Below are positions 2,394 through 24,470 of a stretch of DNA of 35,349 nucleotides, piece after piece. This stretch comes from Halodesulfovibrio sp. MK-HDV (lineage in GTDB: Bacteria > Desulfobacterota > Desulfovibrionia > Desulfovibrionales > Desulfovibrionaceae): positions 21,807 to 57,155 of the forward strand of contig NZ_WYDS01000025.1 in NCBI RefSeq assembly GCF_009914765.1, written 5' to 3'. The position numbers were made by a program, and so were the translations under genes. The notes under the pieces were generated by a model. That model searched no databases, was not told the origin of the DNA, and was given only the letters and a program-made list of their open reading frames with translations. How positions within the stretch are numbered: the first letter of the stretch is position 1; each line of letters starts with the position of its first letter.

Positions 2394-2395
2394 AA

Positions 2396-4792: not shown

Positions 4793-6144
4793 TACTTTCT
4801 TTGCACTGAATCCAACAGCTTGTTGGCTTTTTTCAATCGCTTTTCTATAAACTGCTGCCACTGCTCTATCTGCTGCTGTTGTTCTGGACTTCTCGGTGTT
4901 CCCGTAAACAAATTAAAAAATATTGCATTGTACACAGGGTCCAGACTCTGCTTGTAAGTTACAGGAATCTCACTAAGCAAACTGTGCGTCTTTTTCTTTA
5001 CTGAAAGAAAATACGGATCATTCGCAGCATATTGACTTTCCAACAAAAGCAAACGCTTCCAAAGCTGACGCCGCTCTAACAACTTATATGTAATAAATTC
5101 TTCAAACAGATTATTCACGAGGTTGTAGCGCACCTGCGACAAGGAAGAATTGTACGGCTTTGCCTTGCCTTCCTTGATCAATTTGAACAATTGAGACTGT
5201 GCAAGTTTGCCGCTGTCGTACATCTGCTGAGCAACAGGAAGACGACGAATCTGCGGCTTAAGCAGAACAGCTTGCCCTTCCGGCGACAGCATAAAGTCTA
5301 TAAAAATTTCTGCTTCACGAGAATTCACACTGTTTTTTAGTGCCCCAATCCCCGCAGGCATCAAAAGAACAGGTTCGCCGTATCGAAACTTCACATCCTT
5401 TACATCCGGCGCACGACCCAGAATATCGATGACCAGTCCCACACCATACAGTCCGCTCTTAACCCCCTCTGTCACACTAAAGCTACGAGCAGAAAGAGTT
5501 ACAAGGTTACCGGACATGCGTAGCAGATACGCCCAGCCTTTTTCCCACCCCATCTTCTGCAAAAGACTTTCTACAATAAGATGTGTCGTTCCTGACCGCA
5601 AAGGGGTCGACATGACCACATGGCTGTAATATTTTGAATCTTCTAAGTCCTGCCAGCGTTTCGGAGCATCAATGTTTTCATTTTTTAAATATGAATCGTT
5701 CCACATCCACCCAACGCTGGACAACGCAAATCCGTAAAAATAGCCGTCAGGATCATCTACAGAAAATCCTTCAACACGCATTGCTTTATACTGCCGCGCC
5801 CGCTCTGTGTGCCTCAGCATGTTGCCCTGTTTCAAAATTTCAAATGCATCGGGTGACGATGACCAGAACACATCAAAGTTTCTGTTATTTCCACGCAACA
5901 ACTCAGCAACGGCAGAAGCCGTCTTTTTATTTAAAATCGAAACCTTGATTTCAGGATGGAGAGACTTAAACCGTTCAATAAACGGTTCATAAAAATCGGG
6001 AGGATAAGAAGTAATTATTCGCAAAGAAGACGATTGAACGGCTTTCGCCGCAGCAGGTACAATCCCGCAAAAAAGTAGAGCACAAACGACTCCGACCATA
6101 CACCAGCAGACGTATCGAACTCCCCTTAAGAAGCCAACGTTCAT
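4792..6144 (-). CDS. periplasmic solute-binding protein of a sensory operon (PgtC-like)
   Basis: The 450-residue protein has an N-terminal signal sequence (hydrophobic core CWCMVGVVCALLFCGIV, cleavage near PAAAKA). A family-1-type extracellular solute-binding fold follows: SSSLRIITSYPPDFYEPFIE, then FDVFWSSSPDAFEIL, then SPEGQAVLL. A Gln/Lys-rich helical C-terminus ends the protein. The start has an excellent Shine-Dalgarno sequence (GGAGGTG, 4 nt before ATG). No ABC permease or ATPase gene accompanies it. It is instead the first gene of an operon with a histidine kinase and a sigma-54 regulator, so it most likely works as a ligand-sensing partner of the kinase, as PgtC does in Salmonella, rather than as a transport component. 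The ligand is unknown. A carboxylate imported by the divergent TctCBA system is the simplest guess. Confidence 0.75.
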   Translation of the reverse strand: MNVGFLRGVRYVCWCMVGVVCALLFCGIVPAAAKAVQSSSLRIITSYPPDFYEPFIERFKSLHPEIKVSILNKKTASAVAELLRGNNRNFDVFWSSSPDAFEILKQGNMLRHTERARQYKAMRVEGFSVDDPDGYFYGFALSSVGWMWNDSYLKNENIDAPKRWQDLEDSKYYSHVVMSTPLRSGTTHLIVESLLQKMGWEKGWAYLLRMSGNLVTLSARSFSVTEGVKSGLYGVGLVIDILGRAPDVKDVKFRYGEPVLLMPAGIGALKNSVNSREAEIFIDFMLSPEGQAVLLKPQIRRLPVAQQMYDSGKLAQSQLFKLIKEGKAKPYNSSLSQVRYNLVNNLFEEFITYKLLERRQLWKRLLLLESQYAANDPYFLSVKKKTHSLLSEIPVTYKQSLDPVYNAIFFNLFTGTPRSPEQQQQIEQWQQFIEKRLKKANKLLDSVQRK

Positions 6145-6551: not shown

Positions 6552-6567
6552 TGGCACAATATTTGAT
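6552..6567 (+). promoter_or_regulatory. sigma-54 (-24/-12) promoter of tctCBA
   Basis: The sequence TGGCACAATATTTGAT matches the sigma-54 consensus TGGCACRNNNNTTGCW, with GG separated from the -12 dinucleotide by exactly 10 nt. The only key mismatch is A instead of C in the -12 GC. It gives a leader of about 150 nt before tctC. A sigma-54-type regulator (1044-2393) is encoded by the divergent operon, which supports use of this site. Confidence 0.6.
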
Positions 6568-6729: not shown

Positions 6730-7671
6730 ATGAAAAGAATTTTAGCATTACTCATGGCACTCGTTTTTGCCTTCCCTATGTATGCTATGGCTGAATACCC
6801 AAGCAAGCCAATCACAATTGTTGTTCCTTCCAAAGCTGGTGGATCAACTGATACAACCGCTCGCATTTTTATTAATGCAGCAAAAAACTACTGGCCTGAC
6901 GCTAATTTTGTAGTTCAGAACGTTCCTGGTTCTGGCGGTCAGAAAGGTTTTGAAGCTATCGCTCGTGCTAAAAAAGACGGCCACACCATCGGCTTAGTTT
7001 TTACCACTCAGATCGTATCTCACATTGTATCCAAACGTGCTCGCTACACTCTCGATAGCTTCCACGTAATGGGTAACGCTGTAGACGATCCATTACTCAT
7101 TGCTGTTCCTAAAGACAGCCCGATCACCGATCTCGCTTCTTTCATCAAAATGGCAAAAGAGAACCCGCTGACCGTTGCTGTTAACGGCATTGGTTCCGAT
7201 GACTTTATTGCTGCCAAAAAATTTGAAAACAAAGCTGATATAACTTTCAACCTTCTTCCAACAAAAGGTTCTACTGAGCAGAAAGCGCTGGTTCTTGGTG
7301 GCCATGTAGATGCAAGCATCATGAACCTTTCCCAGATGCAGGCACAGCACAAAGCGGGCACCGCTCGTGTTATCGCTCTCCTCAATGCAGAACGTTCCGA
7401 CGTTCTTCCAGAGGTTAAAACTGCTACTGAACAGGGTTACACTGTAAACATGACTGCTACCCGCGGTTTTGTTGCACCTGCTGGCATCGATAAAGACATC
7501 CTTACCAAGCTTGATGCTCTTCTCGTGAAAATTAACAGCGATCCTAACTTCATCGCTGACTGCAAAAGAAACGTTTACAGCCAGCTGCCAATGTCCGGTG
7601 AAGACTACCGCACATACCTTGAAGGTCTTCAGACAGAAACACAGTCTTTCTACGACAAGAACCCTTGGTAA
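6730..7671 (+). CDS. tctC: TTT-family periplasmic substrate-binding protein TctC
   Basis: This is the extracytoplasmic receptor of a tripartite tricarboxylate transporter, 313 residues, the usual family length. It has a typical Sec signal peptide (MKRILALLMALVFAFPMYAMA, cleavage before EYPSKP). The TctC/BugT signatures follow: PITIVVPSKAGGSTDTTARI near the mature N-terminus and NVPGSGGQKGFEAIARAKKD, a carboxylate-binding loop region in this family. The start has GGAG about 7 nt upstream. It is the first gene of tctCBA and the most strongly expressed member would be expected here. Known TTT receptors bind carboxylates such as citrate, tartrate or terephthalate, and the substrate cannot be read from this sequence. 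Expression is probably sigma-54 dependent (site at 6552-6567) and controlled by the divergent three-gene sensory system. Confidence 0.88.
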   Translation: MKRILALLMALVFAFPMYAMAEYPSKPITIVVPSKAGGSTDTTARIFINAAKNYWPDANFVVQNVPGSGGQKGFEAIARAKKDGHTIGLVFTTQIVSHIVSKRARYTLDSFHVMGNAVDDPLLIAVPKDSPITDLASFIKMAKENPLTVAVNGIGSDDFIAAKKFENKADITFNLLPTKGSTEQKALVLGGHVDASIMNLSQMQAQHKAGTARVIALLNAERSDVLPEVKTATEQGYTVNMTATRGFVAPAGIDKDILTKLDALLVKINSDPNFIADCKRNVYSQLPMSGEDYRTYLEGLQTETQSFYDKNPW

Positions 7672-7677
7672 TACAAT

Positions 7678-8136
7678 ATGACAAAAAGATTTGCTGAGTT
7701 ATTGCTTCTCGGCGGATTTTTGGTACTTGCGGTGCTGCTTTACAACAGCACCGCAGCGTACCCAAAATTCGTTCAGGGCTCGACAGCCGCATATGTTCGC
7801 TTTTTGGGAATTTCTCTTGGCATTCTATGCCTTACAGAGCTGTTCTTTGCGTCCAAAAAAAAAGGACAGGACAACCAAAAGGCACCTCTTAACATGGCAG
7901 ACGCTCCCCGCCGATTCTGGGGACTATGCATCCTGTTATTTGTCTATGCTGCCTCATTTGAGTTCTTAGGATTCTATCTGGCATCAGCAGTTTTTCTTCC
8001 GGTAGCTATGCTTCTACTTGGAGCACGAAAACCAATTCTTATCAGCCTGACCTCTGGAGGAATTTTACTTTTCGTCTACCTCGTTTTCGAAAAATTGCTT
8101 GGAGTTTTTCTCCCGACAAGTAGCTTGTTCGGATAA
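7678..8136 (+). CDS. tctB: TTT-family small membrane subunit TctB
   Basis: The 152-residue protein has four predicted membrane segments, near residues 8-24, 40-57, 80-100 and 105-142 (the last long enough for two closely spaced helices). The polar loop between the second and third is Lys/Gln-rich (ASKKKGQDNQKAP). Size, position between tctC and tctA, and topology identify it as the small, poorly conserved TctB subunit. It begins 6 nt after the tctC stop and ends 11 nt before tctA, so the three are translated from one message. TctB sequences diverge widely, so the assignment rests mainly on context and topology. Confidence 0.82.
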   Translation: MTKRFAELLLLGGFLVLAVLLYNSTAAYPKFVQGSTAAYVRFLGISLGILCLTELFFASKKKGQDNQKAPLNMADAPRRFWGLCILLFVYAASFEFLGFYLASAVFLPVAMLLLGARKPILISLTSGGILLFVYLVFEKLLGVFLPTSSLFG

Positions 8137-8147
8137 GGATACATCGT

Positions 8148-9626
8148 ATGATCTTAGAATCAATATATTCCCTGATGGCACCTTTGCCATTGCTTGCTGT
8201 AGTTCTTGGAACTATTTCCGGCGTAATCATCGGCGGTATGCCGGGTCTGACAGCGACTATGGCAGTTGCGCTACTAATCCCTGTCACCTTTACCCTTGAT
8301 CCACTCATCGGTCTTGTTCTTATGGGTGGCGTCTACTGTGGTGCCATGTACGGCGGCTCTATTCCAGCAATTCTCCTGCGCACACCGGGCACTCCGGCAG
8401 CAGTTGCAACCGCACTGGAAGGCTACCCGATGACACAGCAAGGTCGTGCGGGCTTGGCGCTTAAAATTTCTGTTATTGCCAGTTGCGTCGGGGGGGTATT
8501 CTCAACAATCATTTTGTTAATTTTGGCTCCAATCCTTGCAACCTTTGCACTCTCTTTTGGACCGCCAGAATACTTCCTGCTTGCGATTCTCGGACTCGCG
8601 GGTCTTGTTTCCATGGCTGACGAAAAGACCGGCCTTATCAAGTCCCTTATCTCCGGTGTGATTGGTTTGATCATTGCTGTTGTCGGCACTGATCCTATCT
8701 CCGGAATGCTCCGCTACACAGCAGGACTGACAGACTTATACGACGGTGTCGCATTTATGCCGGTACTCATCGGCCTGTTCTCTATTTCGCAGATGCTTTC
8801 CCTGACCGGTAAAAGAAGTGTTGTAGATAACGCTGCACTCGTTACCGAGATCAAGCGTGAGCCTATGCCAAAAGGTATTTTCAAATACATCAGCATCGGT
8901 TCTCTTACCGGTACTCTTGTAGGAATTTTGCCTGGTGAAGGTGCAACAATTGCGGCGTTTCTTTCCTATAACATCGCAAGACGCCGTTCTAAAACTCCTG
9001 AGCTGTTCGGCAAGGGTAATCCAGAAGGTATTGCAGCTGCGGAAGCAGGCAACAATGGCTGCGTAGGCGGTTCGTTGATTCCTACTCTTACGCTTGGCAT
9101 TCCCGGCAACAGTGTTGCTGCGGCATTGCTTGGTGGCTTGCTGGTTCACGGTCTGATTCCGGGTCCAGAGCTATTCACCACCTACGGGTCAATGACCTAT
9201 GCATTCATCTTCTCTCTGTTCATTGCCAACATCGTATTTTTGATTCTGGGACTGTACATGGCACCGTACTTTGCAAGAATCGCACTCACCCCAACTGAGC
9301 TGCTGATTCCTGTTGTTTGCCTGTTTTCAGTTCTTGGTTCTTACTCAATGAACAACAGTGTGCTTGATGTCTTCCTCTGTCTGCTTTTCGGCCTTGGAGC
9401 TGTTCTTCTGCACAAAACAGGCTTCTCCCTTGGCGCACTTATCCTCGGACTTATTCTTGGACCAATTGCCGAAACAGGCTTTGCACAGGCGCTTATTATG
9501 AGCAGAGGTAGCGCAGCTATCTTCTTTAAAAGCCCGCAAGCAATTGTACTGTGGTTCATCATCTTCCTGCTGTTAGTGCCACCACTCATCAATATTCTCA
9601 AAAAGCATCGTACAAAGTCAGTGTAA
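8148..9626 (+). CDS. tctA: TTT-family large permease subunit TctA
   Basis: This is the 492-residue translocation subunit of the tripartite tricarboxylate transporter, with about 11-12 hydrophobic segments. The glycine/proline-rich TctA signatures are present: GGMPGLTATMAVALL near the N-terminus, GGSIPAILLRTPGTPAAVAT at about 60-80, and the repeated motif GILPGEGATIAAFLSY near residue 260. It also has TLGIPGNSVAAALLGGL. An AAGGA ribosome-binding site lies 8 nt before the ATG. The protein acts in the inner membrane with TctB and the periplasmic receptor TctC, driven by an ion gradient in known members. A palindromic terminator 100 bp downstream closes the operon. Confidence 0.92.
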   Translation: MILESIYSLMAPLPLLAVVLGTISGVIIGGMPGLTATMAVALLIPVTFTLDPLIGLVLMGGVYCGAMYGGSIPAILLRTPGTPAAVATALEGYPMTQQGRAGLALKISVIASCVGGVFSTIILLILAPILATFALSFGPPEYFLLAILGLAGLVSMADEKTGLIKSLISGVIGLIIAVVGTDPISGMLRYTAGLTDLYDGVAFMPVLIGLFSISQMLSLTGKRSVVDNAALVTEIKREPMPKGIFKYISIGSLTGTLVGILPGEGATIAAFLSYNIARRRSKTPELFGKGNPEGIAAAEAGNNGCVGGSLIPTLTLGIPGNSVAAALLGGLLVHGLIPGPELFTTYGSMTYAFIFSLFIANIVFLILGLYMAPYFARIALTPTELLIPVVCLFSVLGSYSMNNSVLDVFLCLLFGLGAVLLHKTGFSLGALILGLILGPIAETGFAQALIMSRGSAAIFFKSPQAIVLWFIIFLLLVPPLINILKKHRTKSV

Positions 9627-13656: not shown

Positions 13657-14184
13657 ATGCTCACAGTTTCCCAACTGGCTAAAAAATTTGGTATATCACG
13701 AACCACTATTCTCTATTATGAACGAGCGGGTTTACTTCTGCCGACAAAACGCTCTTCAAATAATTATCGCTGGTATGGTGAAAAAGAAATTTCAAAACTG
13801 GAAACGATCATAGCGTACCGGTCATTTGGATTACCTGTCGCGCAATTATCTGAACTCTTAGATCGAGAAGATGAAGCAACACAGGAGCAAATCCTATGCA
13901 ACCAATTCAAGGCTCTTGAAACAGAGATACAGCAACTCAGATTGCAGCAAAAAGCCATCATGACCCTTCTTAAGCATCCTGACTTGTTAGAAAACCAGAT
14001 GGTTACCAAAAAACGTTGGAGCAGCATTATGAAGGCTGCAGGCTTGAGCGATCAAGACATGCACAACTGGCATCAGCAGTTTGAAAAAATGGAACCTGAG
14101 GCACATCAGCAATTTTTAGAATCCCTCAATATTTCACCAGATGAAATAAAGAAGATACGCAGTTCCACCAAAAAAAAATCGTAA
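13657..14184 (+). CDS. MerR-family transcriptional regulator
   Basis: This is a 175-residue DNA-binding regulator. Residues 1-70 form the MerR winged helix: MLTVSQLAKKFGISRTTILY, then YERAGLLLP and SNNYRWYGEKEISKLETI. A coiled-coil dimer helix follows at about 80-115, with a C-terminal effector region of about 60 residues rich in charged helices (HNWHQQFEKMEPEAHQQFLE). There is no Cys cluster of the metal-sensing type, so it probably senses an organic ligand or partner. AGGA lies 10 nt before the ATG. It is upstream of and on the same strand as the CutC-like gene but separated from it by a strong terminator. Regulation of that gene is plausible by position, not shown. Confidence 0.85.
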   Translation: MLTVSQLAKKFGISRTTILYYERAGLLLPTKRSSNNYRWYGEKEISKLETIIAYRSFGLPVAQLSELLDREDEATQEQILCNQFKALETEIQQLRLQQKAIMTLLKHPDLLENQMVTKKRWSSIMKAAGLSDQDMHNWHQQFEKMEPEAHQQFLESLNISPDEIKKIRSSTKKKS

Positions 14185-14220
14185 TTCAAAACCTAGCATT
14201 ACTATTTGTAAAACATACGA

Positions 14221-14259
14221 ACGCCGCACAACAATTACACATTATTGTGCGGCGTTTTT
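14221..14259 (+). terminator. terminator after the MerR gene
   Basis: A perfect 11-bp stem ACGCCGCACAA (14221-14231) with TTGTGCGGCGT (14245-14255), a 13-nt loop and a trailing TTTTTA form an intrinsic terminator. It separates the MerR gene from the CutC-like gene, which therefore needs its own promoter. Confidence 0.88.
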
Positions 14260-14288
14260 AATTGCTACCTGACACTTATGTAAACTCT

Positions 14289-14333
14289 GCCCCTGCGGGA
14301 GGGGCTTCACAAAAAAAACCTATTCGCTATAGT
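14289..14333 (+). promoter_or_regulatory. candidate sigma-70 promoter with abutting hairpin, CutC-like gene
   Basis: A -35 TTCACA (14306-14311) and a -10 TATAGT (14328-14333) are separated by 16 nt. Immediately upstream is a GC-rich inverted repeat, GCCCCT/AGGGGC with loop GCGGG (14289-14305), which directly abuts the -35 and could be an operator. TGTAAAC (14279-14285) precedes it and recurs in the promoter region at 21061. No GG-N10-GC sigma-54 site is visible here. Confidence 0.4.
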
Positions 14334-14449
14334 GCAACCTCAGAATATAACAGACTCAATCCAACGCTCAAAATTATTGCGTTCGCACAATGAAACCTTC
14401 AGGCGCAACAGACTGTAATCAAGCACTAGCAAACCAAAGGAATCTTTTT

Positions 14450-16894
14450 ATGACCTGCACAACATCTCGCGAGAACAACAACCTTACGGACAACTCCAGC
14501 AGCGCATCGCAGCTACCTATACGCATTCAGCGTCTTAAAGATGCTTACCTGAAGGTGAAGCCAAGTATCACCATAGGACGCGCTCTGGCGTACACTGAGG
14601 TCACAAAAGAACATCCTAACCTGCCAATCAATGTGCGTCGTGCCAAAGGTTTTAAAAGAGCCTGCGAAACTGCACCGTTGAGAATTCAAAACGGTGAGCT
14701 GATTGTAGGACACCCTTGTGGTAAACCTCGTGCCGGTTCATTCTCCCCTGATACAGCATGGAAATGGCTTCGGGACGAGCTGGACACCATAGGAACCCGT
14801 GCTCAAGATCCGTACGAGATTAGTGAAGAAGATAAAAAGATAATGCGCGAGGAGCTATTTCCTTTTTGGGAAGGCCGGTCTCTTGATGAAGCATGTGAGG
14901 ATGCTTTTCGAGAAAAGGGATTATGGGAATTCTCTGCCGAAGCCTGTGTAAGCGACTTGACCTACCATCATACTAGTGGAGGTGGAGACACAAGCCCTGG
15001 GTATGACATCATTTTGTTTACCAAGGGAATTAACGGCGTAAGAGCTGAAGCGGAAATGCATCTAGCCCAATTACCAAAAGAGGCTGATGCAACCGAAGAC
15101 GACACAAAGAAAATACATCACTACCAAGCAGCGCTCGAAATCTGTGATGGAATCCTTAGTTATGCAAATCGTCTTTCTGCTTATGCACTGCAATTAGCAC
15201 AGGAAGAACAAGACCCTACCCGCAAGGCAGAACTTGAAAAAATAGCCGAAGTTAATGCCACTGTTCCCGCCAATCCACCCAAAAATTTTCATGAAGCTCT
15301 GCAAGCCATCTGGACTATCCAGTCACTCTTCTTGCTGGAAGAAAACCAGTGTAGCACTTCTCTTGGTCGCTTTGACCAATACGTCTATCCATGTTTTGCA
15401 GCCGATATAGATTCTGGTCGAGTAACAGAGGCAGATGCCTTCGAATTAATGAGTTGCTTCATCCTCAAATGCTCTGAAATGATCTGGTATACTCCAGGAG
15501 CAACAGCTCAATATTTCGCAGGCTATATGCCATTCATCAACCTTTGTGTTGGCGGAACTAAACGACAAGGCGGCGACGGAACCAACGCCCTGACATACCT
15601 TGTCATGGATGCTGTTAGCAAAGTAGGAGTGTACCAGCCTTCTCTTGCCTGCCGAATCCACAATCAGTCTCCGCAAAAATATCTGCAAAAAATTGTTGAA
15701 GTTATTAAAGCTGGTAGTGGAATGCCTGCCTGTCATTTCGACGATGCGCACATAAAGATGATGCTCCGAAAAGGGTTCGATTATGAAGATGCCCGCGACT
15801 ACTCCCTCATGGGTTGTGTTGAGCCACAAAAATCCGGACGGATCCACCAATGGACAGCAGGCGGTTTTACGCAGTGGCCTGTCGCTATTGAATTTGTTTT
15901 CAATCACGGTGTGCTGGAATCTTACGGTAGCAAGGTAGGGCTGGATACCGACGACATTTCGCAGTTTAAGACCTATGAAGATTTTGATGCCGCAGTCAAA
16001 AAGCAGATCGCTCATATTTTAGACCTAACAGCGCAAGGCACGGTTATTAACCAAGAGCTTGTCCGCGACACAATGCCTACGCCGTACATGTCATTATTTG
16101 TTGATGGCTGCATGCAAAACGGCAAAGACGTTACTGCCGGTGGCGCTGTTATGTACGGTGGCCCGGGTACAATATTTGCCGGACTGGGTACCTACGTTGA
16201 CAGTATGGCAGCAATTAAAAAGCTTGTTTTTGATGAAAAGAAATACACTCTTACAGAACTGAAACAAGCGCTTAATGCAAACTGGAAAGGGTATGAACAG
16301 GTACAGGTTGATTGTCTTAACGCCCCCAAATACGGGAACGATGATGATTACGCCGACATGATTGCAACAGACCTCATCGACTTCACAGAAAAAACAAGCA
16401 ATCAGCACAAAACATTATATGCTCATTTAATTCACGGCACGTTGTCTCAGTCATTCAACACTCCACTTGGGGAAATGATTGCAGCTACTCCTAACGGACG
16501 CATCTCAAATGCTCCGTTATCAGACGGCATGAGCCCTTCCCAAGGCGCAGATAAGAATGGTCCTACATCGATCATCAATTCTGTGGGCAAACTCAACGTA
16601 GAATCCATGAGCCTCGGAATGTCACACAACTTTAAGCTGCTGAAAGGAACCCTAGAATCACCTGAAGAGAAAGCTGGCTTAGTTGCGTTGCTGCAAACGG
16701 CATCAATGTTAGGCAACGCGCAAATGCAATTTAACTACCTTGATAACGAAGCCCTCATCCAAGCGCAAAAAACTCCTGAAGAGTACCGAGATCTCATTGT
16801 CCGCGTGGCTGGATACAGTGCTTTCTTTGTAGAACTATGCAAAGAAGTACAGGACGAAATTATTAGCCGTACTATGCTAGGCTACAATAATTAA
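14450..16894 (+). CDS. cutC: glycyl radical enzyme, choline trimethylamine-lyase (CutC) family
   Basis: I prefer the ATG at 14450 (AAAGGA 7-8 nt upstream; 814 residues). An ATG at 14390 would give 834; numbering below uses the longer form. The chain has the PFL-like barrel, with the thiyl Cys and catalytic Glu in [11 protein letters not shown] (C476, E478) and the glycyl-radical motif RVAGYSAFF (G808). Against remembered Desulfovibrio alaskensis CutC numbering, F395, C489, E491, T502 and G821 all fall at a constant offset of 13 (F382, C476, E478, T489, G808). Y208 and D216 correspond to Y192 and D200 after a 3-residue indel. Y506 corresponds to F493, a change in the choline pocket. CutC cleaves choline to trimethylamine and acetaldehyde. 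No shell proteins, acetaldehyde dehydrogenase or dedicated activase follow. It is convergent with the activase at 16997-17962. A related quaternary amine is an alternative substrate. Confidence 0.75.
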
Positions 16895-16920
16895 TCAGCA
16901 CCTAACGATAAAATCATAAT

Positions 16921-16950
16921 AAAAAAGGCATCAATGTTGATGCCTTTTTT
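16921..16950. terminator. bidirectional terminator between convergent GRE transcripts
   Basis: A perfect 30-bp palindromic sequence has arm AAAAAAGGCATCAA (16921-16934). The A tract on one side and the T tract on the other make it a terminator in both directions. It ends the CutC-like gene on the plus strand and the activase operon on the minus strand. Confidence 0.88.
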
Positions 16951-16996
16951 ATTACAATCGAAGCAAAAGAGTACTTCACCGTCATTAACAGTAGAT

Positions 16997-17962
16997 CTAC
17001 CCCCCTACTGTTACATGCGCCACATACTTGCTGGCAACATCCTTCATACTGTGCACGATAGCCTTATCGAGTGGTTCAATACCGTGCAGTGGATATGTCC
17101 GCTCCAACTGCTCCCATTTCGGTTCACCAAGCCTGTGGTATGGCAGAATATCAAGTGATTCAACGGCCGAGCCAAGTGATGAAACAAACTTAGCCGTTGC
17201 CTCAATATTTTCCACAGAATCGTTGCAACCCGGAATAAGTGGAACTCTAATACGCAGTTTCTTCCCCATCGTCGCAGCGTTAGCAATATTGATTAGAATT
17301 TGCTCATTGGGCGCTCCTGTAAGCGCCTTATGTTGGTCAGAATCCATATGCTTTATATCAGTCAGTACTAAGTCTGTATGTTCTAATACTTTCTGAAATG
17401 TTTCAAAGGTAGTCATTGCACAGGTTTCAATTGCAGTGTGCATGCCCCTACGCTGAGACTCGCGTAAGCATTCAATCAAAAACTCTGACTGCATAGTCGG
17501 TTCGCCACCGGAAAATGTTACGCCTCCGTTGGACGTCTCATAAAAATGCCGGTCACGCTCCACTTCATCCATCACCTCATCTACTGTCATGAAACGACCA
17601 ACAATAGTCATCGATCCAGCGTAACAATGTTCAACACACTCTCCACAGTATGTGCACTTATCACGCTCAATAATAAACTCGCCCTGCGCATCAACAGACA
17701 AGGCGTTTTCCGGACATTTTTCAATGCATTTTCCGCATCCGATGCATAAATGAGGAAGACGCATCAACTCCGGTTTCGGACTCATTGATTCCGGATTCTG
17801 ACACCACTTACAGTGCAGTGGACATCCTTTAAGAAAGACTAATGTTCGAATCCCGTTACCGTCGTGAACAGAGAACCGTTGAATGTCAAAGACTGTTCCG
17901 GTTAATGCAGCGTTATCTTTGTCAGACAACCGAAAGGAATGTTGGCGTTCTTTCCACGTCAT
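16997..17962 (-). CDS. radical SAM glycyl-radical-enzyme activase
   Basis: This 321-residue activating enzyme installs the glycyl radical on a partner GRE, using S-adenosylmethionine and a reduced [4Fe-4S] cluster. The radical-SAM triad is CPLHCKWC (C47, C51, C54). A ferredoxin-like insert carries two further cluster motifs, CIGCGKCIEKC (C73, C76, C79, C83) and CTYCGECVEHC (C103, C106, C109, C113). The insert is typical of activases of dehydratase/lyase GREs and is absent from the short PFL activase. GGVTFSGGEP is the SAM-binding GGE region. It begins 52 nt after the upstream GRE, behind a hairpin, with AAAGGA 9 nt before the ATG. It is the only activase in the window, so it may serve both GREs. 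Confidence 0.93.
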   Translation of the reverse strand: MTWKERQHSFRLSDKDNAALTGTVFDIQRFSVHDGNGIRTLVFLKGCPLHCKWCQNPESMSPKPELMRLPHLCIGCGKCIEKCPENALSVDAQGEFIIERDKCTYCGECVEHCYAGSMTIVGRFMTVDEVMDEVERDRHFYETSNGGVTFSGGEPTMQSEFLIECLRESQRRGMHTAIETCAMTTFETFQKVLEHTDLVLTDIKHMDSDQHKALTGAPNEQILINIANAATMGKKLRIRVPLIPGCNDSVENIEATAKFVSSLGSAVESLDILPYHRLGEPKWEQLERTYPLHGIEPLDKAIVHSMKDVASKYVAHVTVGG

Positions 17963-17980
17963 GTTCTATGTCCTTTGTAA

Positions 17981-18007
17981 CGCGGAGCCGGATACCCCGA
18001 CTCCGCG
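17981..18007 (-). promoter_or_regulatory. intercistronic hairpin between GRE and activase genes
   Basis: CGCGGAG (17981-17987) and CTCCGCG (18001-18007) form a 7-bp GC-rich stem with a 13-nt loop in the 52-nt gap between the GRE stop codon and the activase start. No T tract follows in the minus-strand direction, so it is more likely an mRNA-stabilising or processing element than a full terminator. It would help keep the GRE in excess over its activase (inference). Confidence 0.5.
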
Positions 18008-18014
18008 GCGTTGC

Positions 18015-20402
18015 TTAGAAGGTCTGTTCGGTACGGGCAATAATGTCGTCCTGAAGTGATTTATCCAACGCTGTAAAGAATGCACTGTATCCGGCAACTC
18101 GGACTACAAGCCCTTTATAGCTATCTGGATTTTCCTGAGCTTCTTCCAACGTTTCACGGCTGATTACGTTATACTGAACATGGAAACCACCATTCTGGAA
18201 GTACGTTTCAGTCACTGCTTTCAAGTTATCCAGACCATTTTCACCTTCGAGTGCTGAGGGATGAAACTTCTGGTTAAGCAATGTTCCGTTTGATGCAATT
18301 TCATGATCAAGTTTAGCAACGGACAACACTGATGCCGTCGGACCGCAACTGTCGTAGCCTGAGATAGGGGAAACACCATCTGCGAGCGGACTCCAAGCCA
18401 TGCGGCCATCAGGAGTCGCTGTTACAACAGAACCAAGCGGCACGTTTGCAGAAGCAGGATACAGACCCGGCTGGAACTTGCCACCGCGCGGGTTTTTGTA
18501 CCGGTTTACTTCGTTGCAATAGATGCCTGCCGCTTCTTTTGCGACGGCATCGGCAAAGTCGTTATCATTACCATACTTAGGGGCGCGGTTTACGAGCATA
18601 AGGCGCAAATCTTCTTGCCCTTCAAAGTTATTGTGCAATGCTTCCTGCAACGCTTTAGCGGTAATCAACTTATCTTCAAAAACAAGCTTCTTAATTGCAG
18701 CAAGAGAGTCACCGGCGTTAGCAACTCCAACACCCTGTGGGCCTGTAAAGTTGTAAATAGCGCCACCTTCCTGAAGAGACATTCCGCGACCAATGCAGTC
18801 TTCTACTAATCCGGAGAGGAACGGTAGCGGACAATGCTTGCCATGGGTCATATCGACAGCGTTATCCGCCGCAGCCATGAGCTTTACGAAATAACTTGTC
18901 TGGGCTTCGTAAGACTTCATAACTTCATCAAAGCTCGTAAAGTCTTCTAGCTTACCACTCTTAGGTCCAATCTGCTTGCCGGTACGTCTGTCCACACCGT
19001 CATTCAAGCAAAGTTCGATAACTTTAGACATGTTGAAGAACGCAGCGTCATGCCACCCTTCTGTCTTACCGCCAACCTGTGGTTCTACACAGCCGATAAT
19101 GCCATAATCTCGAGCGTCTTCTCTACTCAGACCTCTAGCAAGAAGAGCCGGAATAATTACACGGTCGTTGTAATATGCTGGGTATCCTAATCCTAGGCGG
19201 CTTACCTCTGCGGCACGTTTGTACAGAACATCAGGTGTACCTTCATGAATACGGATGGAAAGAGAAGGAGCATATAATTTTGTGTTCGCACTAGCCTGCA
19301 GCACAAGGAAAGACATGGCATTCGTGGCATCAGCACCATCACGGGACTGTCCACCAACAATGAGGTTCATAAACATTGGGTAGCCAGCAAAAGCCATAGT
19401 GGAAGCTTCGTCACGAACCTTATTTAATTCAGAGAATTTAACCCACAGCATATCGAGCAGTTCCTGCGCTCTTTCAACTGAGGTAGAACCTTCCTGCAGG
19501 AACGGATTCATGTATTGATCAAAGCGCATAGGGGAGATCGAATGTCCGTTTGACTCAATCTGTACAACAAGGTGCACAAACCAGAATGCCTGCAGTGCTT
19601 CCTGTAATGTAGTCGCAGGGTGCGCAGGAACCTGACGACAGATACGAGCAATCTCTAATAGCTCTTCTTTACGGTCGCCATCACAGGTTGCAGCTTTTTC
19701 TTCTGCAAGAACTGCAAAACGTTCTGCAAAAACGATAACAGCTTTGTTTGCGATAATTACAGACTCAAGAAAACGACGTTTATTTTGAGCCTCAGCATCG
19801 GTGAAATCCAACTTTTCAATGGCTTCTTCAGCAGATGCAATTACTGAGAGAATACCCTCAGTGAGTACTTTATTGTAATCAGGAGAAATATGTCCCACAC
19901 CGTTATAGAAGTAGTTACCCACTGTATAGACAACATCGTTATGCGCTTCCAATGACTCTGGAGGCATAAATGCTGCTGCTATTTCGTTAGTAGTTCGACC
20001 ATCCCAATATGCGAACGCGCTGCGAAGCTTATCTTTTGTTTCTTCAGAAATAAGAAAAACATCGGCTGTTCTTTTTTCCAGACGATCAAGCTCTTCTTCT
20101 ACCCACTTGCAGGAAAATTCTGGAAAAATGGGAGCAGAACGCGGCATACTGCACTGGTTACCGACTACTAGTTCCCCATCCTGTATAAAGATGGACATGT
20201 TTGTCAGCACGTTTTCCAATGCCCTTGCGCGACGAATCGCAATTGGTTGCCCTTCTGTTGCCTTGTAAGATTCAGTTAAAAGAACAGCTCGCTCTGCACA
20301 AATTGCTGGTGCAGTATTAACGAAACGGTCAAGCGCCAGAGAAACGCGGTCTGTTGGGCCATACAGTTTCGGGATCACCATTTTCGGGGGATTAGTCGTC
20401 AT
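18015..20402 (-). CDS. glycyl radical enzyme, diol-dehydratase-like, substrate unknown
   Basis: This 795-residue GRE has the thiyl Cys and catalytic Glu in IIGCVEPQVGG (C438, E440) and the radical loop [10 protein letters not shown] (G771). Compared with remembered Clostridium butyricum glycerol dehydratase, H171, H287, S288, E440 and D452 (in GWHDAAFFN) occupy the positions of H164, H281, S282, E435 and D447. That points to a dehydratase. The position of its Y339 (94 residues before the Cys) is F344 here, as Phe is in HypD and CutC. The HypD residue Y450 corresponds to A454, so hydroxyproline dehydratase is less likely. AAGGAG lies 7 nt before the ATG. It is 24 nt downstream of a GlcG/HbpS-like gene and followed by the activase. 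Glycerol, propanediol or a sulfonated diol are possible substrates. No aldehyde dehydrogenase or shell genes are present. Confidence 0.82.
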   Translation of the reverse strand: MTTNPPKMVIPKLYGPTDRVSLALDRFVNTAPAICAERAVLLTESYKATEGQPIAIRRARALENVLTNMSIFIQDGELVVGNQCSMPRSAPIFPEFSCKWVEEELDRLEKRTADVFLISEETKDKLRSAFAYWDGRTTNEIAAAFMPPESLEAHNDVVYTVGNYFYNGVGHISPDYNKVLTEGILSVIASAEEAIEKLDFTDAEAQNKRRFLESVIIANKAVIVFAERFAVLAEEKAATCDGDRKEELLEIARICRQVPAHPATTLQEALQAFWFVHLVVQIESNGHSISPMRFDQYMNPFLQEGSTSVERAQELLDMLWVKFSELNKVRDEASTMAFAGYPMFMNLIVGGQSRDGADATNAMSFLVLQASANTKLYAPSLSIRIHEGTPDVLYKRAAEVSRLGLGYPAYYNDRVIIPALLARGLSREDARDYGIIGCVEPQVGGKTEGWHDAAFFNMSKVIELCLNDGVDRRTGKQIGPKSGKLEDFTSFDEVMKSYEAQTSYFVKLMAAADNAVDMTHGKHCPLPFLSGLVEDCIGRGMSLQEGGAIYNFTGPQGVGVANAGDSLAAIKKLVFEDKLITAKALQEALHNNFEGQEDLRLMLVNRAPKYGNDNDFADAVAKEAAGIYCNEVNRYKNPRGGKFQPGLYPASANVPLGSVVTATPDGRMAWSPLADGVSPISGYDSCGPTASVLSVAKLDHEIASNGTLLNQKFHPSALEGENGLDNLKAVTETYFQNGGFHVQYNVISRETLEEAQENPDSYKGLVVRVAGYSAFFTALDKSLQDDIIARTEQTF

Positions 20403-20426
20403 AAATTTCTCCTTACATATTCCCTG

Positions 20427-20828
20427 TTAACAATACGCACTCAAGCCAGCATTGGCACAAGCAATGTCTTGCTCCACACTTCCACCACTCACACCAATTC
20501 CGCCAATAATTACGTCCTCATGTGCTACAGGGAGTCCACCACCAAAAATCACAAAACGACCCTGTTTGTCTGTTTGGATTCCATACAAACTCTGACCCGG
20601 TTGTGCGAGTTCTCCAAGAGTCTCTGTGGAAACCTTTACAGCCACAGCGGTGTAGGCTTTATTCAAGGCAAGATCGATACTAGCCAACAGAGCGTCATCC
20701 TGACGAACCTGAGCAATCAAATTTCCACCCCTGTCAACAACGGCAATAACCATTGGGACACCTAACTCATCAGCCTTCTCTTCAGCAGCTGTGATCATTC
20801 GTAATGCTGTATCTTTTGATATATCCAT
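20427..20828 (-). CDS. GlcG/HbpS/PduO-C-family small protein
   Basis: The 133-residue protein begins at the ATG at 20828 (MDISKDTALRMITAAEEKAD), preceded by GGGAG. The frame is open further upstream to 20945, but that extension lacks family features. Signatures are GVPMVIAVVDRGGNLIAQVR, the Ala-rich helix LALNKAYTAVAVKV, and the Gly-rich GGGLPVAHEDVIIGGIGVSG, all typical of the GlcG/HbpS fold found alone or as the C-terminal domain of PduO. Family members bind haem or cobalamin-related ligands, or degrade small molecules, and the role here is not known. It is the first gene of the operon with the second GRE and the activase. Homologous domains occur in diol-utilisation loci, supporting a diol-type pathway. 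Confidence 0.8.
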   Translation of the reverse strand: MDISKDTALRMITAAEEKADELGVPMVIAVVDRGGNLIAQVRQDDALLASIDLALNKAYTAVAVKVSTETLGELAQPGQSLYGIQTDKQGRFVIFGGGLPVAHEDVIIGGIGVSGGSVEQDIACANAGLSAYC

Positions 20829-21191
20829 TGGAACTCCCGTAACATTTGTTCTGAAAATCTCAGCAGAGCATCTACAGGCAAATGTACATCTAATTATTAA
20901 GATGTAACCTGATCCGACGCACCGCCAAACAAAACTTCGTAACAACCAAGAGCGTATCTCACATGTTTATAGGAAGATTTATTCCAAACTAAATTTAATA
21001 TTACATATCAGATGGTTAATCTAAAAAAATATGTTTCACAGGTTAAAAAGCCCTTCTTTTTGTAAACCACAGTTGACATTCCTTCGCGCTATCTGTTTGT
21101 ATTCACGTAGATATTCGCTAACCATCTACGTTAACCTGCTGTGTTTGTTTGGTTGACACATGGTTTACACGCTTTAGCATCTGGAGAATGT
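20829..21191. promoter_or_regulatory. bidirectional control region with three nested inverted repeats
   Basis: This 363-bp gap separates the GRE operon (minus) from the PocR kinase gene (plus). It contains three pairs of inverted elements: ACGTAGAT (21105-21112) with ATCTACGT (21124-21131); CAGGTTAA (21039-21046) with TTAACCTG (21131-21138); and TGTAAACCA (21061-21069) with TGGTTTACA (21161-21169). A further TAACCTG occurs at 20905-20911. TTGACA at about 21073-21078 may be the -35 of the kinase promoter. I found no clear sigma-54 -24/-12 element in either orientation, although the linked regulator is of the sigma-54 type. Confidence 0.5.
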
Positions 21192-23081
21192 ATGCCTGCA
21201 AATACCGCACGCAATAATGATGTTCTATTGTCGTTACATGGAGAAATAGCGTCACTCCAAGAACGCATTACGTTGCTTGAAGCAGAAGAAACCCTGTGGA
21301 AAAACCTCGGGCAATCCTGCGACTTTCCGCCCGAATCAAACACTCCTCTTCCCGAAGAAATTCATTTCAAATTCGAAAATATTTTTGATCTTACTGCGAT
21401 CCAGAAAATTCAAGATTCCTTTGCAGAAGCAACCAATGTGGCTTCAATCATTACAGACCCTGAAGGAAGACCAATCACTAAACCGAGTGGTTTCTGCAGC
21501 CTGTGTAATGATGTTATTCGCAAGACTAAGTTGGGACTAAAAAACTGTATGCGCTCAGACGCAGCATTCGGGACGCTTAATCCCCTAGAACCTATCATGC
21601 GACCATGCTTAAGCAGCGGACTTCTGGACGGCGGAACAAGCATTTATGTAGGCAAACGCCACATTGCAAACTGGATTATTGGGCAGCGTCGAACATCTTC
21701 AGAACCAGATCAAAAGATTATTGCGTACGCTAAGGCGATTGGAGCAGATGAAGAGGCATATCGAACAGCATATGACAACGTACCAATCATGCCTAAAGAA
21801 CAATTCTACAAGGTATGTAATGCACTGTGCCTCATTGCGAATCAGCTTTCCACGCTTGCACAACAAAATTACCGACAAGCGCAAGCCATTGCCAGACGTC
21901 AACAAGCGGAACATGCATTGCGAGAAAGTGAAGAACGCTTCAGACAACTTTCCGATTCCACTTTTGAGGCAATCTTTATCCACCACAAAGGAAAGATACT
22001 GGAAGCGAACAAAGCCGCAATCACCCTGTTTGGTTTCACACGGGAAGAACTCATAGGCAGGACAATCAATTCTCTTGCTGCACCTGAATTTAGAGAAGCA
22101 ATTCGTGAATATTCTGAGCAAGGTGGGAATTTATGGTTTCAGGGGGAATTTCAATGCAAAAATACGCTGTCGATAATCTGTGAAGTGCAAGAGCGAAACA
22201 TTACGTTTCAAGGCAGAAACGTTCGTGTTTGTGCTGTTCGCGACATCACTCAGCGCATTCAGTCTGAGCAAGAGGCAAAGGAAAAAGAGCAGCAACTTAT
22301 TCAGGCAGATAAAATGGTCTCGCTGGGGGTTTTAGTTTCGGGCGTTGCACACGAAATCAACAATCCCAACAGCTTTATGACAATGAACTTGCCGCTCATT
22401 AATGACGTTTGGCAAAGCATTACGCCTATCCTGGACGACTATTACAAAGAGAACGGGGACTTTCTGGCAGGAGGATTAGAATATTCTTCGTTACGGGAAG
22501 AGCTACCGAACCTAGTTTCCCGTATGCAAGACGGCGCATCACGGATCAAGGGAATCGTTAACAACCTGAAAGATTACTCACGTGTTGAGCCAAGCCAATT
22601 AATGTGGGACGTCGATATAAACGACATGATCCGCAGCTCTCTTCCTCTTCTGGAAAAACTAATTTCAATGCACACTAACAGCTTTACCACCAACCTCGCT
22701 ACGAACCTTCCACCAGTACAGGGCAACAGACAGCGCCTTTCACAAGTCTTCATCAATCTACTCGTTAACGCCTGCGAGGCTCTTATCGACAAAGACGACA
22801 ACGTCACCGTCACATCGCAATATCTTGAAGACTTACGAACAGTTGAAATTGTCGTAGTCGACACAGGAAGCGGTATTCCTGAACATTTATTATCGAAAAT
22901 TACCGATCCGTTTTTCACGACAAAGCGAGATTCCGGAGGTACAGGTCTCGGCTTATCCGTTTCTTCAGCCATTGTGCAGGAACATTCCGGAACCCTACAA
23001 TTCATGCCTCACCCCGACGGGGGCACCATTGCACAACTCCATCTACCAATTGCTGACCATGGAGAAAAAGATGTCCGATAA
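21192..23081 (+). CDS. PocR-PAS sensor histidine kinase
   Basis: The ATG at 21192 is chosen (GGAG 5 nt upstream); a GTG at 21141 is less likely. The protein has 629 residues and no membrane segment, so it is a cytoplasmic sensor. Order: short coiled coil (residues 10-40); PocR ligand-binding domain (about 61-223) with NVASIITDPEGRPITKPSGF and a set of four cysteines (two in FCSLC, one in KNCMRSD, one in RPCLSSG); PAS (about 246-358); HisKA with phospho-His in GVAHEINNPNSF (H387); HATPase_c with DTGSGI and GGTGLGLS. PocR domains are named for the propanediol-utilisation regulator and bind small diol-like or hydrocarbon ligands. The kinase probably senses the substrate of the neighbouring GRE(s). 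Its 3' end overlaps the start of the response-regulator frame by 11 nt. Confidence 0.9.
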   Translation: MPANTARNNDVLLSLHGEIASLQERITLLEAEETLWKNLGQSCDFPPESNTPLPEEIHFKFENIFDLTAIQKIQDSFAEATNVASIITDPEGRPITKPSGFCSLCNDVIRKTKLGLKNCMRSDAAFGTLNPLEPIMRPCLSSGLLDGGTSIYVGKRHIANWIIGQRRTSSEPDQKIIAYAKAIGADEEAYRTAYDNVPIMPKEQFYKVCNALCLIANQLSTLAQQNYRQAQAIARRQQAEHALRESEERFRQLSDSTFEAIFIHHKGKILEANKAAITLFGFTREELIGRTINSLAAPEFREAIREYSEQGGNLWFQGEFQCKNTLSIICEVQERNITFQGRNVRVCAVRDITQRIQSEQEAKEKEQQLIQADKMVSLGVLVSGVAHEINNPNSFMTMNLPLINDVWQSITPILDDYYKENGDFLAGGLEYSSLREELPNLVSRMQDGASRIKGIVNNLKDYSRVEPSQLMWDVDINDMIRSSLPLLEKLISMHTNSFTTNLATNLPPVQGNRQRLSQVFINLLVNACEALIDKDDNVTVTSQYLEDLRTVEIVVVDTGSGIPEHLLSKITDPFFTTKRDSGGTGLGLSVSSAIVQEHSGTLQFMPHPDGGTIAQLHLPIADHGEKDVR

Positions 23082-23166
23082 CTATCCAAGACACCCTATT
23101 TTGCTTGTAGACGATGAAGATTCATGCTCGCCAGCTTCAAAACAACTCTACGCTCTAAAGGGATAG
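23071..23166 (+). pseudogene. N-terminal receiver fragment, frame-disrupted from downstream regulator
   Basis: An ATG at 23071 has an ideal Shine-Dalgarno sequence (GGAG, 23061-23064) and overlaps the kinase stop. It encodes MSDNYPRHPILLVDDEDS, the beta-1 strand and acidic pocket of a response-regulator receiver domain. After Ser at 23122-23124 the frame runs into unrelated residues and stops at TAG 23164-23166. The rest of the receiver domain continues in another frame from 23124 (MLASFKTTLRSKG). One extra base at about 23124 (TCA ATG in place of TCATG) would join the two perfectly into a 466-residue regulator. It is either a real lesion or a base-calling/assembly error. Confidence 0.75.
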
Positions 23167-24470
23167 GTAATGTTGTAACAGAAAACGACAGTAGCAAGCT
23201 GCTTTCCATTTTGGCATCACAAAGATTCTGTGCGGTTGCGATTGACCTTATGATGCCCAAGCTGTCAGGCGAAGAGCTTATTCCACAAATAGTCACCCAG
23301 CATCCTAATATTCCAATCCTTGTAATCTCCGGACTTAATCAGGTAAAAAGTGCTGTTAACTGCATGCGCCTTGGTGCTTTTGATTTTATAGTTAAGACTG
23401 AAGAACGCGACACTCTCATCGCCGCAGTTCGTCACGCCATCGAAATGTTTGAGCTACGACAGGAAAACTCTTCACTTCGAGAACGTTTTTTCAAAAAAGA
23501 GCTGGACCACCCAGAGTATTTTGAAAATATCGTTACGCAAAATAAAGAAATGCATTCCATCTTCCAATATATTGAGGCAATTGCTGAAACATCCCGCCCT
23601 GTACTCATTACAGGAGAAAGTGGTGTCGGCAAAGAGCTGGTAGCGAGAGCTGTGCACAACTCCAGTGGACGTACTGGAGAATTTGTTGCTCTCAACATTG
23701 CTGGTCTTGATGATAATATAGTTGCAGACACACTGTTCGGGCACACTAAAGGAGCCTATACAGGAGCAACAAAACCCCGAATGGGGCTTGTAGAAAAAGC
23801 AAAGAACGGCACACTGTTTCTTGATGAAATTGGAGACTTGAGCCTCGCTTCACAGACAAAACTCCTACGCCTTCTTCAGGAACATGAATATCTGCCACTT
23901 GGGTCAGATATGGCAAAGCGTTCCTCTGCACGTATTGTCGCTGCTACCCACCAAAACCTCAACGAATTACAAGAAAGCAGCCAGTTTAGGCGAGACTTAT
24001 TCTACAGACTGCGAGGGCATTTACTGCACATACCGCCCCTTCGGGATCGCAAGGAAGACCTTCCTCAACTCATCTCACATTTTGTGCATGAAGCAGAAAT
24101 CAATTTAGGAAAAATGGTTACATCAAACCCAACGGAACTCGCAGATTACCTATCGCAATACACGTTCCCGGGAAACATACGAGAGCTGAAAAACCTCATA
24201 CTAGATTGTTCAGGCACCTGTGTTGACGGTTTGTTGAGCACTACGCACGTGCAAAGACTTCTCACCCACTCCTACGATTACCAACCTGAATCTGCAAAAG
24301 CACAACAGCCTGAAGCTCCAGTTACATTTGGCTCCACCCTTCCTTCATTAAAAGAAATTCGTGCAGCTCTCATCAACGAAGCCCTCATACGCGCAAACAA
24401 CAACCAATCCGGCGCTGCGCAGCTTATAGGAGTGACACGTCAGGCAATAAGCAAGTATCTGCGAGAGTAA
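23124..24470 (+). CDS. sigma-54 response regulator, receiver N-terminus frameshifted
   Basis: The 448-residue frame lacks the first 18 residues of the receiver domain, including the acidic pair, which sit in another frame at 23071. Phospho-acceptor D41 (VAIDLMMPK) and the later receiver are present. The AAA+ domain has Walker A GESGVGKE (164-171), a good sigma-54 loop GAYTGA (210-215) and Walker B TLFLDE. A Fis-type helix-turn-helix ends the protein (INEALIRANNNQSGAAQLIG). The internal ATG at 23124 has no Shine-Dalgarno sequence of its own. The partner is the PocR kinase just upstream. If the frameshift is real, the protein could be constitutively altered or not made. If it is an artefact, this is an ordinary two-component pair controlling the GRE operon. 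Confidence 0.8.
   Translation: MLASFKTTLRSKGIGNVVTENDSSKLLSILASQRFCAVAIDLMMPKLSGEELIPQIVTQHPNIPILVISGLNQVKSAVNCMRLGAFDFIVKTEERDTLIAAVRHAIEMFELRQENSSLRERFFKKELDHPEYFENIVTQNKEMHSIFQYIEAIAETSRPVLITGESGVGKELVARAVHNSSGRTGEFVALNIAGLDDNIVADTLFGHTKGAYTGATKPRMGLVEKAKNGTLFLDEIGDLSLASQTKLLRLLQEHEYLPLGSDMAKRSSARIVAATHQNLNELQESSQFRRDLFYRLRGHLLHIPPLRDRKEDLPQLISHFVHEAEINLGKMVTSNPTELADYLSQYTFPGNIRELKNLILDCSGTCVDGLLSTTHVQRLLTHSYDYQPESAKAQQPEAPVTFGSTLPSLKEIRAALINEALIRANNNQSGAAQLIGVTRQAISKYLRE

Follow-up and report, generated by a model that had tools for sequence, protein, structure and literature searches.

The stretch of DNA analysed here (35,349 nucleotides, referred to as the window; C25:21807-57155, contig NZ_WYDS01000025.1, in the 4.17 Mb, 97% complete assembly GCF_009914765.1 of Halodesulfovibrio sp. 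MK-HDV) encodes two glycyl radical enzymes (GREs) in convergent orientation around a single activase of the radical S-adenosylmethionine (SAM) type. One is a stand-alone relative of the choline trimethylamine (TMA)-lyase CutC, named CutC2 here, and the other a diol-dehydratase-like enzyme, named GRE2. Choline organelle genes are present in the same genome, which makes the window CutC2 its second protein of the CutC family. In our opinion it is probably a satellite of the choline system, which would act on choline or a close analogue and be activated in trans by CutD, the two GRE modules of the window being unrelated. The clade to which it belongs is a more interesting object than the local pairing of the two enzymes.

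Both GREs were identified as PFL-like plus Gly_radical proteins and the activase as a radical SAM protein, far above chance (Pfam). CutC2 passed the TIGR04394 equivalog cut-off for CutC (1327 vs 1050 bits), and the neighbouring activase remained under the CutD cut-off, TIGR04395 (298 vs 360 bits). Six PFL-like GREs and five matches to the CutD-type activase profile (E<=1e-40) were found in this genome. Since one activase each accompanies the GREs on contigs C2, C3, C15 and C37 and that of the GRE2 operon, CutC2 is the GRE left without one. The C2 and C15 enzymes exceeded the equivalog cut-offs for sulfopropanediol dehydratase and 4-hydroxyphenylacetate decarboxylase, respectively, while contig C3 carries the canonical cut organelle locus, with shell genes, aldehyde-dehydrogenase-like open reading frames (ORFs), CutC (1642 bits, 61 residues ahead of the profile match) and CutD (535 bits). 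No shell protein was detected in the window, nor any bacterial microcompartment (BMC)-domain match on contig C25; the 14 BMC-domain matches of the genome are on C3 and C13.

CutC2 was present in seven of 149 genomes sampled from the family, i.e. the window's own and six others at 71-84% identity; the canonical CutC rows of the same sample are 56-61% identical to it. Among the best 80 of 160 loci in a scan of GTDB species genomes, it was found in 18 named genomes (68-81% identity): Desulfobacterium (two metagenome-assembled genomes), Desulfoluna (two), Desulforhopalus, Desulfosediminicola, Desulfovibrio sp. UBA2564 and a Desulfobacteraceae; Clostridium (CS001, aminobutyricum and tagluense), Acetoanaerobium, a Peptostreptococcaceae, Enterococcus and an Enterococcaceae; and Endozoicomonas, Parendozoicomonas and Klebsiella spallanzanii. 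Two more of the 80 loci repeated genomes of the family sample (L104 is G142, and L112, Desulfovibrio cuneatus, is G019). The clade spans three phyla.

Canonical CutC, together with one or more CutD above the cut-off, was found in all 25 CutC2 genomes (the window's, the 18 named and the six of the sample). In the 24 non-window genomes the two kinds of protein scored in separate ranges, 1235-1396 bits for CutC2 and 1505-1680 bits for canonical CutC, and a single CutD was found in each except Clostridium aminobutyricum (G167), with two canonical CutC and two CutD. Within the family sample, canonical CutC occurs in 26 of the 149 genomes and all seven with CutC2 are among them (hypergeometric 2.3e-6, kinship ignored). 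An adjacent cutD, no more than about 310 bp away, accompanies canonical CutC in 25 of 25 CutC2 genomes and CutC2 in none; the closest approach was seen in L109, where 627 bp and a shell gene lie between CutD and CutC2. In about a third of the genomes (9 of the 24) CutC2 is located 1.8-13.5 kb from canonical cutC on the same contig, examples being the complete chromosome of Desulfoluna limicola and Klebsiella spallanzanii, and wherever an activase match lay no more than 8 kb from CutC2 in the 24 genomes, it was the CutD of a linked cut locus. The families found near CutC2 in at least three of 24 neighbourhoods were activase, aldehyde dehydrogenase, shell proteins, PduL, EutP, EutJ, RnfC/PduS, alcohol dehydrogenase, a DMT-type transporter, canonical CutC and sigma-54 regulators, all of them cut-locus genes except the sigma-54 regulators and the activase of L084 and the window. 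In four genomes (G153, G154, G157 and G158) CutD was the sole match both to the CutD profile (E<=1e-40) and to the window activase (E<=1e-60).

Phylogenetic analysis placed the CutC2 rows in a single clade. The alignment of 84 rows was made without L104 and L112, which duplicate the genomes of L083 and L087, respectively, and without L167, which also comes from the genome of L083. In a first tree with 24 CutC2 and 20 canonical rows, the support of the clade in the Shimodaira-Hasegawa-like approximate likelihood ratio test (SH-aLRT) was 100, and it was 100/100 in a second tree with 18 CutC2 rows, six type I, two long and seven other rows and two outgroups. CutC2 was separate from type I, from the two long gammaproteobacterial CutC, and from the II.b-like and Pelobacter rows, the II.a- and II.b-like labels being assigned by protein length and organism, following the descriptions in the available part of PMC5026066. 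Pelobacter rows were nearest to CutC2 when the tree was rooted on the outgroups (fork support 83/66), whose branches are very long, leaving the root unsure. L114 and L115, 70% identical to CutC2, were left outside the clade by both tree and pocket; an earlier pocket count of 26 CutC2 rows had included them, and the count used here is 24. No paper listed in searches of an open-licence library was recognised as describing this clade, subscription papers falling outside that scope. Two more-distant cutC/cutD stretches, 32-34% identical, have been reported in K. pneumoniae (PMC12058022, in part), and closely related genes with other specificities inside one genome are mentioned in PMC6200775 (in part).

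The residues lining the active site distinguish the clade further. Positions follow the numbering of Desulfovibrio alaskensis CutC, anchored by C489 in the GCVEPQ motif, and the pocket was taken as the 13 residues of the extra-large quantum mechanics region in PMC12451663 (in part), compared between 53 canonical rows and 24 of CutC2; G117 was kept out of the residue counts and L106 was aligned by the longer of its two pieces. Ten of the 13 residues are invariant in both groups. At the other three the canonical rows have Thr334, Tyr506 and Ile700 in 53 of 53 cases, and the CutC2 rows have Cys (23 rows) or Ala (one row) at position 334, Phe at 506 (24/24) and Gln at 700 (24/24). The catalytic Cys (C489), the Glu of the CXE motif (E491), T502, D216 and the radical Gly (G821) are kept in all 24 CutC2 rows, as are Y208, H209, F389, F395, M487 and L698. 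All 24 also carry G335S, and GRE2 has a serine in the same column. According to the part of PMC8473560 available, Tyr506 of CutC is directed at the substrate and Thr334 is too distant from it, so that any effect of T334C may be indirect.

A cationic beta-hydroxy compound is the likely substrate of CutC2, because Asp216, Tyr208 and Phe395 are retained, and the added polar groups suggest that it could be more polar than choline. There is also the possibility, to which we give slightly less than even weight, that CutC2 is an amine lyase of new specificity which shares CutD, works outside the shell and acts on a choline-like compound other than choline itself, e.g. a hydroxylated or sulfonium analogue. 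Carnitine was considered and is disfavoured, since no basic residue was gained at the 13 pocket positions; carnitine, DMS-choline and dihydroxy analogues are indistinguishable by sequence. The simpler proposal, by which CutC2 would be a plain second choline TMA-lyase with the substrate of CutC and activation by CutD, is possible but less likely than not. The score above the CutC equivalog cut-off and the eleven conserved residues fit it, whereas the changes at three of 13 pocket positions (T334C/A, Y506F and I700Q) and the serine shared with GRE2 do not. Replacing two tyrosines of CutC at once (Y208F/Y506F) lowers its efficiency about 83-fold, which also speaks against this proposal, although two residues were changed together and the direct electrostatic effect of both was small in the same study (PMC12451663, in part).

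CutC2 probably works in the cytosol. An N-terminal extension of at least 45 residues was present in 51 of 53 canonical rows and in one of 24 CutC2 rows (longest-ORF starts, so that the lengths are upper bounds), and in the enzymes of GRM1 and GRM1b, which are glycyl radical enzyme-associated microcompartments, the type I extension is predicted to serve as an encapsulation peptide (PMC6325248, in part).

Activation by the window activase is an unlikely alternative. The earlier note had proposed that this enzyme may serve both GREs, so that CutC2 and GRE2 would form one locus with a shared activating enzyme, and expected the pairing to be conserved in relatives. This reading is favoured by the 103 bp between the ends of the activase gene and of CutC2, by the lack of an activase belonging to CutC2, by the co-occurrence of both GREs in four of the seven CutC2 genomes of the sample, and by a window-type activase in another CutC2 genome, G155. 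However, a window-type activase (at least 69% identity) is present in five of the 25 CutC2 genomes and has no orthologue at this level in the other 20, compared with canonical CutC plus CutD in all 25; four of the five have GRE2 (at least 80%), and G155 is outside the GRE2 sample. Neither GRE2 nor an activase adjoins CutC2 in any of the other six CutC2 genomes of the sample. Three of them (G057, G117 and G129) carry GRE2 on another contig or far away, and it is missing from the remaining three (G142, G036 and G019); in the sequence read around CutC2 the nearest activase is 8.4 kb off on the other strand (L084). Among the four genomes with both GREs, the two are linked in the window alone. In addition, the activase is co-directional with GRE2 and follows it in all 11 relatives' loci described below. 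We therefore reject sharing deduced from adjacency, because the pairing is not conserved, the activase follows GRE2 and it occurs in five of 25 CutC2 genomes. The two GREs are linked in the window's genome only, probably by chance; the broader notion that a single activase can serve two GREs could survive with CutD as the partner. Of the second activase and the complete cut or pdu locus that the earlier note had named as refuting evidence if present just outside the window, a complete cut locus does exist, though on a different contig, and C25 yielded no second activase. Similarity of the glycyl radical domain was tried as an indicator of activase sharing and dropped, as the core shows the same order.

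That CutC2 is a decaying or non-catalytic copy, perhaps serving CutC in regulation or as a radical sink, is very improbable, since the in-frame interruptions in G117 and L106 and the patchy distribution (7/149 family genomes, and the window's genome alone among 395 of the phylum) are outweighed by catalytic residues and radical glycine kept in 24 of 24 rows, by a dN of 0.09 in a pair whose dS is saturated (2.08), and by the presence of the clade in three phyla.

Several observations weigh against CutC2 being a CutD-activated satellite of the choline system, or limit what can be concluded from our data. No canonical cutC lies within 16 kb of CutC2 in 15 of the 24 non-window genomes, one of which, L101, is a short contig where a shell gene adjoins CutC2. 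The neighbouring activase could still act on CutC2 in the window's genome, and GRE2 and CutC2 co-occur above random expectation, in four genomes of the sample (G000, which is the window's, G057, G117 and G129; hypergeometric 0.001, kinship ignored, two genera). The glycyl radical domain of CutC2 is 68% identical to that of canonical CutC and 42% to that of GRE2, a comparison that is not discriminating because the core gives the same order (58% and 33%). Regarding location, GRM2 CutC also lacks the short N-terminal extension and yet comes from shell loci (PMC6325248, in part), so that a cytosolic place for CutC2 is deduced, not observed. The frame of CutC2 is interrupted by one in-frame stop codon in G117 (L086:9918-12311), being open in its relative G129 (L085), and is split into two same-frame ORFs in L106. 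The comparison of the window CutC2 with that of G057 gave dN (nonsynonymous) 0.09 and dS (synonymous) 2.08, which is saturated, and with that of G142 dS was undefined. Finally, the GTDB scan with the window CutC2 was done with six peptide patterns and covered the best 80 of 160 loci, and among 395 genomes of the phylum CutC2 (E<=1e-200) was found solely in the window's own.

The other module of the window (16997-24470) is a conserved unit. GRE2 was present in 13 of the 149 family genomes, the window's and twelve at 78-96% identity. In 11 of 11 loci fetched from relatives (GRE2 at least 78%), the HbpS-like gene, GRE2, its activase, the divergent PocR-domain kinase and the sigma-54 regulator were all present, with kinase and regulator both adjoining GRE2, and CutC2 in none. 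G025 (GRE2 79%) was not among the fetched loci, and L097 (G133, GRE2 64%), which has neither the full sensor/regulator pair nor an HbpS match, is outside the 11. BMC-domain genes are absent from six of the 13 GRE2 genomes (G007, G105, G121, G058, G143 and G025), in a scan that gave matches in both controls, E. coli and Synechococcus, and from this it follows that the unit needs no shell. The suggestion of a shell-free pathway in the earlier note thus holds for GRE2.

The best solved match of GRE2 was the B12-independent glycerol dehydratase 1r8w (1000 bits), and its alignments contain the His, His, Ser and Asp of the diol site plus the Cys-x-Glu motif, numbered as in the Clostridium butyricum enzyme. 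The protein was above the broad subfamily TIGR01774 only, with no equivalog cut-off passed. GRE2 can be considered a putative dehydratase of glycerol or 1,2-propanediol. The HbpS-like protein (PF03928, 140 bits against a cut-off of 25) matched structures 2a2l, 5cx7 (PduO-type) and 6bws (EfgA), and the residues aligned with K57, S114 and D121 of EfgA are K, S and D, assuming the chain-numbering offset. EfgA binds formaldehyde, and its authors propose an overlap with PduO via an aldehyde (PMC8153426, in part). This DUF336 protein probably binds or senses an aldehyde.

Taken together, these data suggest two unrelated GRE modules that would have been brought together by rearrangement. In the first, the PocR-domain kinase and the sigma-54 regulator would switch on HbpS, GRE2 and the activase; the activase would install the glycyl radical on GRE2, which may dehydrate glycerol or 1,2-propanediol to an aldehyde, and the DUF336 protein probably binds or senses this product. 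The second would consist of CutC2 alone, a choline TMA-lyase paralogue without an activase of its own and probably cytosolic. The CutD of the canonical cut locus would supply its glycyl radical in trans, CutC2 would split off an amine from either choline or a closely similar beta-hydroxy ammonium compound that may be more polar, and the resulting aldehyde could be used by the cut enzymes.

The features of the window are listed in Table 1. An ORF check located the named genes at the positions reported previously, and ORFs and domains agree with the gene inventory of the earlier note (a CutC-family GRE, one activase, a diol-dehydratase-like GRE, the HbpS-like, MerR and PocR/sigma-54 proteins, and no shell genes). 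The ORF list gives a TTG start at 20945 for the HbpS-like gene, for which 20427-20828 was used here.

Table 1. Main features of the window (positions are those of the window).
Feature	Position	Strand	Basis
TctCBA tripartite transporter, ~4.8 kb upstream of CutC2	6730..9626	+	Pfam TctC, TctB, TctA
MerR-family regulator, upstream of CutC2	13657..14184	+	Pfam MerR_1
CutC2, stand-alone CutC-family GRE	14390..16894	+	ATG at 14390 or 14450; TIGR04394 1327 bits
Radical-SAM GRE activase, GRE2 operon	16997..17962	-	TIGR02494 368 bits
GRE2, glycerol/1,2-propanediol dehydratase-like GRE	18015..20402	-	Best solved match 1r8w, 1000 bits
HbpS/GlcG/PduO-C (DUF336) protein, GRE2 operon gene 1	20427..20828	-	PF03928 4.8e-41
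PocR-domain PAS histidine kinase, divergent from GRE2 operon	21141..23081	+	PF10114 1.1e-45
Sigma-54-dependent NtrC-type response regulator	23124..24470	+	Sigma54_activat + Response_reg

A role of the MerR regulator as partner of CutC2 is unsupported: no homologue was found in the other 23 CutC2 loci (ORFs of at least 90 aa within 10 kb, less at contig ends), and it is 22% identical to the cut-locus regulator over 73 aa. TctCBA is directly upstream of CutC2 in one relative (L083), a weak link, as four genomes of the same genus have TctA but no match to CutC2, and G057, conversely, has CutC2 but no TctA match. Divergent from TctCBA, a PhnS-like substrate-binding protein, a kinase nearest to PgtB and a sigma-54 regulator (1044-6144) form a three-component set that is conserved together with TctCBA in genus relatives; a sigma-54-like site with one mismatch ahead of TctC (6552-6567) is within chance expectation. 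The sigma-54 promoter consensus was uninformative in the window as a whole (21 sites vs a shuffle mean of 23.1), and Rfam and tRNA scans of the window gave no matches. The right edge of the window is the contig end, reached by a surface polysaccharide region that includes a pseudaminic acid synthase, PseI, above its cut-off (33742-34788). To the left of the window, two adjacent ORFs (L021:1844-3272) resemble by eye two parts of one aldehyde dehydrogenase, possibly a broken gene, next to an ORF similar to iron alcohol dehydrogenases.

Elsewhere in the genome, the GRE on contig C37 (L019:2138-4573) has its own activase and, by eye, an adjacent transporter-like ORF. It passed no NCBIfam cut-off and has Leu aligned to the Glu of the Cys-x-Glu motif, and it may therefore not be a typical eliminase. 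Contig C13 holds a second microcompartment locus without a GRE (L017:9644-17111), with shell genes, a phosphotransacetylase above its cut-off, and a EutQ-like protein under its cut-off. An aldehyde dehydrogenase and a protein similar to RnfC/PduS were noted there by eye. The locus might receive aldehydes produced elsewhere. Among the CutC2 loci of other bacteria, that of Desulfosediminicola flagellatus (L118:1727-7772) includes an MttB-family homologue together with what look by eye like an aldehyde ferredoxin oxidoreductase and an aldehyde dehydrogenase, all 2-8 kb from CutC2. In Clostridium sp. CS001 (L105:12482-14442) a histidine kinase with a PocR domain and a response regulator of the AraC type come after CutC2, and a similar-looking pair follows it in L116.

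CutC is a marker gene for microbial trimethylamine formation, and CutC2, with a different pocket and a putative activity, may be counted as a choline lyase because it passes the CutC cut-off. If it does have a new specificity, the substrate range of the cut system would be wider in bacteria of three phyla. Should CutD activate CutC2, two clades that differ in their pockets would share a single activase, and the four genomes in which CutD is the sole activase match offer a clean test of it. The GRE2 unit, in turn, represents a diol-dehydratase-like GRE retained in genomes without a BMC-domain gene, with a possible aldehyde-binding protein in its operon.

CutC2 shares with choline TMA-lyase CutC of types I, II.a and II.b (the cut/GRM1 and GRM2 systems) the thiyl Cys, the CXE Glu, Asp216 and the radical Gly, and the CutC2 genomes examined also hold CutC and CutD. 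It differs from all three types in having no adjacent cutD, three fixed pocket changes and a separate clade, from type I in lacking the N-terminal extension, and from the cut/GRM microcompartment locus in that the window CutC2 locus has no shell genes. Pelobacter CutC resembles it in lying outside a shell locus, the available part of PMC6200775 describing Pelobacter CutC/CutD as having no microcompartment genes in the neighbourhood. Unlike CutC2, Pelobacter rows keep Tyr506 and Thr334, and Pelobacter CutC is the sole CutC match in its genomes (G161, G162 and G169), with CutD 6.6 kb (L114) and 5.9 kb (L126) away.

The PflA activase of E. coli activates more than one GRE, as proposed here for CutD, although PflA does so within the PFL group and CutD would act on two CutC clades. 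The GRE2 module is similar to the B12-independent glycerol dehydratase and activase of C. butyricum in combining a GRE and an activase without a shell. It differs in that the GRE2 operon, which holds its own activase in the window and in the 11 relatives' loci, adds the DUF336 protein and the PocR/sigma-54 pair, and in that profile searches of the window's proteins recognised no alcohol dehydrogenase. The DUF336 protein itself shares structural matches with the formaldehyde sensor EfgA, the C-terminal domain of PduO and GlcG, and differs from them in being encoded by the first gene of a GRE diol-dehydratase operon.

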